From: Octadecabacter arcticus 238
Lineage (GTDB): Bacteria; Pseudomonadota; Alphaproteobacteria; Rhodobacterales; Rhodobacteraceae
Direction: 5' to 3'
Assembly: GCF_000155735.2 (NCBI RefSeq)
Contig: NC_020908.1
Location: 2,361,001 to 2,425,000 of the forward strand
DNA: 64,000 nucleotides
Notes under the pieces: model-generated
Database searches by the model: none
Seen by the model: only the letters and a program-made list of their open reading frames with translations
Told to the model about the DNA's origin: nothing
Translations under genes and position numbers: made by a program
Shown here: positions 15,292 through 17,423 of the stretch, piece by piece
Layout of the letters: each line of letters opens with the position of its first letter
Numbering within the stretch: position 1 is the stretch's first letter

Positions 15292-15879
15292 GATCAGCTG
15301 TACGCGCAAAGTTAGAATGTCCCACATCTGCAAAGTAGAAATGGCACACTTCCCTGTCTGAAGCAGGATTGGAGTGTGGCTGTGGGACTGGTGATTATGA
15401 GCGAACGTGAGCTGAACCGCATTGAAGTATTGAGCCAAGTGACACAAGGCCGGATGACGGCTGTGACCGCGGCCAACGTGTTGGGACTGAGCCGACGACA
15501 AGTGCATCGATTGCTGAGGGATTTCCAGACCGATGGTCCCGCTGCGATCCGCCACAAAGCGCGCGGCCGAAGATCGAACAACCGGATCGACCCAGCGGTG
15601 CGTGGGTTTGCGGTGACACTGGTTCGCGAGACCTACATCGATTTTGGGCCCACGTTTGCAGCTGAGAAGCTGGCCGAGGATCATGGCTTGAAGGTTTCGC
15701 GTGAGACGTTGCGCAAGTGGATGCAGGACGCCGGGATCTGGTTGAGCCGCAAACAGCGCCGCACGTTCCATCAGCCTCGTTTGCGTCGGGAATGCTTCGG
15801 CGAACTGATCCAGATCGATGGATCTGATCACCATTGGTTTGAGGGTCGCGGTCCGCGATGCACCCTGCTCGTGTTCATC

Positions 15880-15920
15880 CCCTCTCGGCAGATTGCTGCG
15901 CAATCGCCTGCCGGGCAATG
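15880..15920 (-). repeat. short palindromic element A (41 bp) inside transposase
   Basis: Insertion defined by comparison with the expected protein frame. It folds into CGGCAG(a)/CTGCCG and ATTGC/GCAAT with loop TGC and a 3-base bulge. Read on the minus strand it runs CCGGCAGGCGATTGC, loop, GCAAT, CTGCC, then GAGAGGG. The first 15 bases match element B (16101-16139) at 12 positions and the GAGAGG tail is shared, so A and B appear to be relatives in opposite orientation. Exact ends are uncertain by a base or two. Confidence 0.75.
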
Positions 15921-16100
15921 GACGATGCGACCAGTACGTTGATGCAGCTGCGGTTTGTGACGTCTGAGAGCACGTTCAGTTATTTTGAGGCGCTCGATTT
16001 GTATCTTGCGGCACATGGCCGGCCGGTTGCTTTCTATTCTGACAAGCACACGGTGTTTCGTGTGGCAAATCAATCCGCCAAATCCGGGCATGGAATGACC

Positions 16101-16139
16101 ACTGACCGACAGTCGTTTGCTTGCAAACGATGAGAGGTG
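16101..16139 (+). repeat. short palindromic element B (39 bp) inside transposase
   Basis: In-frame insertion with a perfect 8-bp stem TCGTTTGC/GCAAACGA (16113-16120 and 16123-16130) around TT. It begins ACTGACCGACAG and ends GAGAGGTG. The part CCGACAGTCGTTTGC aligns with element A, and both end in GAGAGG. If translated it adds TDRQSFACKR and a stop to the transposase. Confidence 0.75.
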
Positions 16140-16953
16140 CAGTTTGGTCGGGCGTTGAACGCGCTAAACGTCGAGATTCTTTGTGCAAACAGCTCGCAGG
16201 CGAAGGGCCGCGTCGAGCGCGCCAATCGCACGTTACAGGACCGTTTGGTCAAAGAGCTCAGGCTTGCAGGCATCTCGGATATGGACGCCGCCAATGTGTT
16301 TCTGCCCAGTTTTACGGACCGCTATAACGTCAAGTTTGCAAAGGTCCCGCGCCGCGCTGACAACTTGCATCGGCCCATGAACATCGAACCCGATCGACTG
16401 CGAGATGTGTTCGCGCTCCAAGACGAACGTCTCGTCGGGGCTCAACTTGCGTTCTCCTATGAACGCCAACGCATCATTCTTGCCGAGAATGAGATGACGC
16501 GCGATTTGCCGGGCAAATATGTGGATACGTTTGCCTTCCCGGATGGGCGATTTGAGGTCCGCTGGAAAGGTGTTTCAATCCCCTACACGGTCTTCGACAA
16601 GGATCAGCGCGTGACACATGCGGCGATCACCGAGAACAAACATCTCAGCGCGGTCCTGGAGCATATCAAAGCCGAACAGGACAAAGCGGCTCCAAAAAAA
16701 CGCCGCGCCGGCAAGCAAACAACGCGCTATCAACCCACTGGAAAGCGCAATGATGGCTGGAACTCAAAGCTAGCTAAACGTGCGAAGGAGAAGGCAGCAG
16801 CGGCGTCAAAACATGCTGCAGAATAACCCCGACCGCATGGCTGGTCAGGGCTGCGATGTGTGAGGTCTCCACCCAGCCCAGCCATGCTACCACACCACCA
16901 AGTGTGACATTTCTACTTTGCACAGAGGCGGACATTTCAACTTGGTTGCAACA

Positions 16954-17423
16954 TCAGCCCCCAAATCGACACCCAGAATGCCCCGTTCTTGAGCGTCCAA
17001 TCACGTTATTGTGCTGCTTGCGGAAACAATTGCCCCATTTACGCCACATTAGCGCCGCCTCAGAACCATCTTCGCGCGCTTTAAGGGATGCACGGTCCGC
17101 CAAGAGGCCCATATCCAGACGGTCCTTCAACCGTCATGAGGCAGAGATCAAAGGCAAAAAGGAAACGCACCATGCCGACGCATCCCCCAGCGCCACTTCC
17201 ATCGGCCCCCAAACCGTCGCCCATTGGTACGCGTCACCGCCCAGAACCACCCAAGCCCGTCGTCTTCAAAGACTTCGCGAGCATCTAGTTTTACGTCTGC
17301 GCCGCTGACCCCTATGTCAGGTTGCGGAAAAACCGATCAGTGAACGCGCCAGCACCGGTGTCCTCCCTCACCGCCGCCGCGCGCCCACTGGTCCTTTTTT
17401 CGACCCCATTGTAGGGTTTGGAA
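16954..17423. other. gene-poor stretch right of the ISNCY element, with a proline-rich frame
   Basis: This 470-base stretch has no recognisable gene. The one frame of interest runs 17139-17288 on the plus strand (start ATG 17139 or 17172) and gives a lysine/arginine-rich start followed by a proline-rich tail ending PKPVVFKDFASI. Twelve of the last 33 residues or so are proline. It lacks a good ribosome site, so it may be a remnant of a decayed gene. The rest has GC content like coding DNA and may be old coding sequence that was interrupted. Confidence 0.35.

Follow-up and report, generated by a model that had tools for sequence, protein, structure and literature searches.

Two palindromic inserts in an ISNCY transposase gene of Octadecabacter arcticus probably belong to a family of very small mobile hairpins of Rhodobacteraceae

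The interrupted ISNCY gene and its two inserts

Why is a transposase gene of Octadecabacter arcticus 238 interrupted twice by short palindromic segments, and what are these segments? The gene lies in the window analyzed here, a stretch of 64,000 nucleotides (C1:2361001-2425000) of the 5.48-Mb, three-contig genome. The original prediction took the segments for two oppositely oriented copies of one family of mobile elements, REP- or MITE-like, too small to be autonomous and suited to mobilization by a REP-associated tyrosine transposase.

The ISNCY-family insertion sequence (IS) that holds both segments spans positions 15299-16953 on the forward strand, within a block that is identical in L001 (the window copy) and L002; its limits were set by a 5-bp target duplication, TCAGC, recognized by eye on the left (15294-15298) and on the right (16954-16958). 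The transposase gene, encoded on the same strand, consists of a first part at 15376-15879 (open reading frame 15376-15942, compared with that of the relative L003), a middle part at 15921-16099 (open reading frame 15858-16133, delimited by alignment) and a last part at 16139-16826 (open reading frame 16137-16826, again compared with L003). L003, which is located in the same genome, is intact and encodes an open frame of 462 aa matching the NF033594 ISNCY transposase; the one ISNCY gene and two ISNCY pseudogenes counted for O. arcticus in the text of PMC3646047 fit L003 plus the two interrupted copies.

Alignment of the window gene with its relatives identifies an extra 41 bp at 15880-15920 (element A) and an extra 39 bp at 16100-16138 (element B). 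The same 41 and 39 bases are missing from all four relatives compared, namely L003 and L004 from the same genome and the ISNCY copies on plasmids CP081164 and CP069021, so that the predicted segments are real and had been delimited correctly to within one base. At the A site, the uninterrupted sequence (a slash marks the junction) reads TTCATC/GAT in L003 and L004, and TTCATA/GAC and TTCATC/GAC in the plasmids; at the B site, it reads ATGAC/GCA in L003 and L004 and ATGACC/CAG in the two plasmids. The limits of A and B were taken from the boundaries of the whole hairpin family at unoccupied sites (see below); the boundary of B is good to one base, the plasmid copies being equally compatible with 16101-16139.

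Element A reads head-first on the reverse strand and element B on the forward strand, that is, in opposite orientations. Read on the reverse strand, A consists of the head CATTGCCCGGCAG, a stem with the arms GGCGATTGC and GCAATC-T-GCC around a 3-nt loop, and the tail GAGAGGG, and is inserted 3' of GTC; B consists of the head CACTGACCGACAG, a stem with the arms TCGTTTGC and GCAAACGA, and the tail GAGAGGT, and is inserted 3' of GAC, following TGAC. An Rfam search produced no match within 15300-16950 at E-values up to 1. The expectation that one insert keeps the frame and the other does not was correct for B with respect to length (39 bp, or 13 codons), but B carries an in-frame TGA at 16131-16133 (open reading frame 15858-16133); both elements disrupt the transposase gene because A shifts the frame and B introduces this stop.

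A hairpin family with fixed ends and exact insertion

A BLAST search with the IS produced dozens of short matches to A and B throughout the O. arcticus genome, and the aligned copies have both ends in common, CAYTGCCCGGCAG and GAGAGGG. The plan of the family comprises a fixed 13-nt head, CAYTGCCCGGCAG, a hairpin that varies in sequence but stays paired, and an equally fixed tail, GAGAGGN. The presence of this head and tail in A, on the reverse strand, and in B, on the forward strand, bears out the prediction of a single family in two orientations. Under the explanation that we favor as the probable one (see below), A and B would both belong to a Rhodobacteraceae family of non-autonomous mobile elements of very small size, mostly 37-43 bp. 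A non-exhaustive literature search found no earlier description of this hairpin family, which may already be described.

The further copies that the original prediction called for are plentiful: the pattern CCGGCAGN{12,42}GAGAGG occurs 66 times in the O. arcticus genome, compared to 2 occurrences of the reversed pattern. A stricter pattern, TGCCCGGCAGN{12,30}GAGAGG, retrieves 45 copies in O. arcticus and 289 in a congener (G002), with a reversed control of 0 in each, and 0-6 copies in each of the other 17 of the 19 genus genomes. The claim of a mobile family holds much more widely than proposed, with the pattern found in 104 of the 295 Rhodobacteraceae genomes, 22 of which contain at least 5 copies; the reversed control was positive in 9 of the 295, with one match in each, so that part of the single matches are due to chance. 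In a sample of 289 genomes of the class searched with a longer head, there were 3 positives, all among its 4 Rhodobacteraceae, and none among the 285 alphaproteobacterial genomes outside the family. A search of GTDB species contigs yielded at least 120 matching stretches, and the 80 that were listed are nearly all from Rhodobacteraceae/Roseobacter-type, Rhodobacterales or alphaproteobacterial sources, the exceptions being two rows of one contig of Vreelandella neptunia and one Robiginitomaculum MAG. The V. neptunia contig (NZ_JAKVTW010000024.1), which bears a gammaproteobacterial name, contains the elements L158 and L189, one of them beside a piece of an HTH_Tnp_1 transposase; these copies could originate from transfer by an IS or a plasmid or, alternatively, from contamination.

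Several other loci were recorded in these searches. The element pattern is present in three viral contigs (L270, L271 and L272). As many as eight elements are packed within 1.3 kb of the congener G002 (C2:257152-258427), where similar loaded units lie near 1706469 and 2595234. The head itself is nearly palindromic; at L015:-:612, a head and its reverse complement are fused (GTCCATTGCCCGGCAGTGGAC) with neither hairpin nor tail, and L018:+:630 resembles this locus but has diverged. Longer versions, in which head and tail would lie far apart, were considered and rejected: 14 of 212 heads have no tail nearby, and by eye these look degenerate, truncated or due to chance.

The variable interior retains its capacity to pair. 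Among the 162 distinct interiors (distinct head-to-tail sequences from the loci compared), 128 have a stem of 7 bp or longer, counting the last G of the head, compared to a mean of 1.95 for shuffled sequences. In the 41-bp class (54 interiors), the position pairs are Watson-Crick in 48-53 of the 54, with two or three pair types at most positions; a simpler pairing measure led to the same conclusion on covariation. When folded singly as DNA, A and B are only mildly better than shuffles (z from -1.5 to -2.2), and these energies are unremarkable; the evidence for structure comes from covariation. A single unpaired base is found on the 3' arm of 62 of the 128 stems (T in 30), and at the base of the stem, the first pair is G-C or G-T and the second mostly G-C or T-A. 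Nineteen of the 162 interiors recur at unrelated sites, one of them at seven.

The ends of the elements and their targets emerge from unoccupied sites. We cut 236 junctions at CAYTG...GAGAGGN and matched the joined flanks against 272 fetched loci, with at least 15 of 20 positions matching on each side. An uninterrupted, ungapped match was obtained for 77 junctions (71 after identical ones were dropped, 8 of these from the O. arcticus genome; 53 groups at 70% identity), and 159 had no unoccupied match in this limited set of 272 loci. When one boundary is shifted alone, 4-22 matches remain after a shift by 1 base and none after a shift by 3; when both boundaries are shifted together by 1-3 bases, 52-76 matches remain, as up to 5 mismatches in 20 are allowed. 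The register is therefore set by the counts of flanking bases: the base preceding the element is the same as at the empty site in 62 of the 71 cases and the base following it in 54, and the C after the element that a one-base shift would need is present in only 5 of the 71.

The targets at the 71 empty sites are CATC (20), TGTC (12), CACC (5), CGTC (4) and others, with G as the next base in 61%; YRTC is matched exactly in 38, and the remaining 33 deviate, as does the target of B (TGAC). The flank profile of unselected copies agrees with the empty-site target, and the YRTC-like motif 5' of the head is already present at unoccupied sites before insertion. Comparison of occupied and empty sites at these 71 junctions shows that insertion is exact and occurs after a YRTC-like target, usually before G, with neither duplication nor deletion of the target. 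Within O. arcticus, IS copies with and without a 39-base insert (L071 and L079 compared to L061) are about 97-98% alike outside the insert. The exact insertions and the same hairpin at unrelated sites, both of them observations on genome sequences, support the mobility of the family. The characterization of the inserts as mobile, REP- or MITE-like in size and too small for autonomy is thereby supported.

Residence in insertion sequences and modes of spread

The surroundings of the elements were compared with Pfam, using one open reading frame piece per context (two in a few); the contexts are not all independent. For O. arcticus, 36 of 40 contexts were tested, with the pieces picked partly by eye: 18 produced matches above the cut-off, 6 weak matches and 12 none, and 3 of the 18 were by generic helix-turn-helix families only (L001, the window ISNCY, along with L044 and L081). 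For named genomes, 60 of 101 contexts were drawn at random and 40 of these were tested, with the piece chosen by codon score; 23 were above the cut-off (L162 by helix-turn-helix only), 3 were weak and 14 had no match. Pooled, the 76 contexts include 37 with a transposase or recombinase, 4 with helix-turn-helix only, 9 with weak matches and 26 with none; no context among the 76 matched any other kind of Pfam family above the cut-off, and the true IS share is uncertain because of the 26 contexts without a match and the 9 with weak ones. Two wider Pfam scans, one of 107 of 115 pieces and one of 150 of 200, yielded 26 and 31 families, respectively, and the 25 families listed in each are all transposase, recombinase or generic helix-turn-helix families. 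The host types include IS3-type (rve), IS4/5-type, IS66, IS91, IS110, Mutator/IS256 and ISNCY elements and a phage-integrase gene; one tyrosine recombinase gene (Phage_integrase, L007:750-1545) carries two elements.

The text of PMC3646047 gives 1175 transposable-element genes and pseudogenes for O. arcticus, beside 4,683 predicted protein genes, and an average of about 21 transposable-element genes per megabase for roseobacters. Given this average, the density of IS seems hardly sufficient by itself to account for the residence of the hairpins in IS of the named genomes; residence could reflect survival, that is, purging of insertions elsewhere, instead of targeting. Strand use shows no clear bias between the halves of the O. 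arcticus chromosome (18 plus and 18 minus in one, 10 plus and 18 minus in the other, with the origin position presumed), which leaves lagging-strand insertion of the IS608 kind without support. Close pairs of elements (120-540 bases apart) have their heads outward in 6 of 17 cases in O. arcticus (G000) and in 13 of 16 cases from G025, G085, G279 and G093 (two of the four repeated pairs of G093 included); the six repeated pairs of G031, which lie outside the latter count, are all in the same orientation.

The hairpins also appear to be copied together with their hosts. The interrupted ISNCY IS is present twice (L001 and L002), in different places, as 1657 identical bases in a block that ends at the IS ends; TCAGC flanks the window copy, and the second copy is without such a duplication. 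Most simply, one of the two would have arisen from the other by transposition when both inserts were already in place, an intact relative having acted in trans; gene conversion could account in part for the two identical copies. Because the window IS was copied with A and B inside, hairpins travel as passengers too. This would provide a second, passive route, whereby an IS broken by hairpins would still be mobilized in trans by an intact relative, copying the passenger hairpins and spreading them from genome to genome. The arrangement would amount to layered parasitism, in which tiny hairpins break insertion sequences and are then copied along with them.

The explanation that we consider probable combines active movement of the hairpins with passive spread inside IS. 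In active movement, the element would transpose as folded single-stranded DNA that is released by cuts at both junctions and linked to the 3' side of the target; we infer the single-strand step from the conservation of the hairpin and the insertion without duplication. The mobilizing enzyme would act in trans and, in most carriers, would be something other than a resident Y1/RAYT or Y2/IS91 transposase.

The strongest competitor, which we regard as possible although clearly less probable, holds that self-transposition has ended, that the original driver is extinct and that the present copies spread only as IS passengers. The copying of the window IS together with both inserts, the many copies that reside in IS and the failure to find a driver are all compatible with such a scenario, as is genome G031, where 12 of the 15 heads belong to one repeated pair present in six copies. 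It is weakened by the 53 insertion-site groups, which are spread over several IS families, and by the copies of the same hairpin at unrelated sites; moreover, the pairs with and without an insert are about 97-98% alike within one genome, and the tightness of the head and tail argues for recent function.

The hairpins could, as originally predicted, be true REPs whose mover is a Y1 REP-associated tyrosine transposase; the hairpin itself, the small size and the insertion after a short target without duplication would all suit this enzyme, but we consider it unlikely. Y1 genes (Y1_Tnp, PF01797) are indeed present in O. arcticus and, by hand counts, occur in 16 of the 104 genomes with the pattern, a somewhat higher share than the 31 of 295 overall, and such a gene could hide in the gaps of drafts or the driver might have been lost. 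However, only 5 of the 22 genomes with at least 5 copies have a Y1 match, and the other 17, drafts included, have none at an E-value of 0.001. Furthermore, the 48 matches in O. arcticus represent, by score and length, mostly one IS200 (160 aa), and the five copies compared (among L086 and L089-L093) are near-identical, with the target TTTAC and hairpins unrelated to those of the element family, which also has no GTAG end. An element located about 50 bases upstream of the left end of an IS200 (L086/L078) was considered as an autonomous version and discarded, given that, by eye, it lies behind an IS256-type gene and that the IS200 ends differ.

A Y2/IS91-type HUH transposase is a very improbable mover. 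IS91 likewise inserts without duplication beside a tetranucleotide, and Y2_Tnp (PF04986) is found in 9 of the 22 genomes with at least 5 copies compared to 29 of 295 overall (counted by hand), but 13 of the 22 have no Y2 match, and the ends of three IS91-type groups, inspected by eye over 80 bases, contain neither a CAYTGCCCGGCAG-like head nor a GAGAGG-like tail. In a search limited to these two groups of enzymes, 10 of the 22 genomes have neither Y1 nor Y2.

Several copies of insert-bearing IS exist, as would be expected if the inserts were functional, being bypassed by the ribosome or removed from the transcript so that the genes still work, but this seems extremely unlikely given the stops and frameshifts, the intact L003 at hand for mobilization in trans, and the fact that 12 elements run with the host gene and 12 against it (L218 being counted on a weak Pfam match), an even split that speaks against removal or bypass at the RNA level. 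Equally hard to credit is that these small, repeated, non-coding elements are classical MITEs of a DDE insertion sequence, because the 71 ungapped junctions are without target duplication and the tail does not repeat the head in inverted form; the predicted likeness to MITEs holds for size but not in the strict sense.

Relation to known repeats

The family shares with GTAG REPs and their RAYTs the general plan of non-autonomous 20-40 bp hairpins with many copies and variable stems. It differs in that flank and end profiles contain no GTAG or GGAG end, most carriers have no Y1, and the elements often lie inside genes; instead of the extragenic location of GTAG REPs, 37 of the 76 contexts adjoin transposase or recombinase pieces above the cut-off. 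Elements of the IS200/IS605 type insert 3' of a short target without duplication. Miniature elements derived from them resemble the Rhodobacteraceae hairpins in this mode of insertion and in view of the unpaired base found in about half of the stems, and differ in that the ends are unlike those of the resident IS200 of O. arcticus, the hairpin is single and most carriers have no Y1. Rickettsia palindromic elements are likewise palindromes inside alphaproteobacterial genes; according to the text of PMC3733652, these lie in frame within genes and some have been shown to be expressed, whereas A and B, the two elements compared in this respect, break their gene by a frameshift and a stop.

The nearest published group is that of the CGTC-tagged REPs (Di Nocera et al. 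2013, PMC3733652), which include RPE-4 and RPE-6 of Rickettsia and dRS3 of Neisseria. As described in the text of that article, they are mostly alphaproteobacterial, mostly intergenic and without a known transposase, links to other transposase genes being few and fortuitous; the tag is CGTC, often TGTC or CCTC, the stem is 8-9 bp long with A-T as the first two pairs, the loops are of 4-5 bases and the tail is CCA. Its main text makes no mention of Roseobacter, Rhodobacter, Ruegeria or Octadecabacter. Short hairpins, varied stems and the alphaproteobacterial bias are common to both groups, and the CGTC tag resembles the pre-insertion YRTC target of the Rhodobacteraceae hairpins. The latter differ in the 13-nt head, the G-C or G-T base of the stem, the GAGAGGN tail and the frequent location inside IS; because the A-T pairs of the stem and the CCA tail are absent, we did not file the family under CGTC REPs.

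A search with a CGTC-REP core pattern was positive in 26 of the 289 genomes of the class sample, where these units, by eye, also show a fixed head, a variable hairpin and a fixed tail, and in none of the 4 Rhodobacteraceae of that sample. The linker of a ccmF-like gene (cytochrome c biogenesis, by eye; L379-L387, from congeners of G462) is a hot spot for CGTC-REP-like units, which lie in frame and differ among several species. Comparison of tag and target in the ccmF-like gene of G462 and its congeners left the site unreadable, the linker being hypervariable with several CGTC-REP-like units. We tentatively raise the possibility, which we do not regard as the likely one, that the Rhodobacteraceae hairpins and the CGTC REPs, including RPE-4 and RPE-6, form one superfamily of YRTC-targeted mobile hairpins, in which the CGTC tag would be the pre-insertion target, the mover would lie outside Y1 and Y2, and the Rhodobacteraceae branch would have become specialized for residing in other IS and being copied there.

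How alphaproteobacterial palindromes move without a RAYT was left open in 2013, in the text of PMC3733652. The exact ends, the target motif, the 71 unoccupied junctions, the near-identical IS pairs and the taxonomic range outlined here render this movement testable. Among REP-like mobile hairpins, the family described here is new and has well-defined limits, a target motif and sites known in the unoccupied state; its frequent residence within insertion sequences is unusual.
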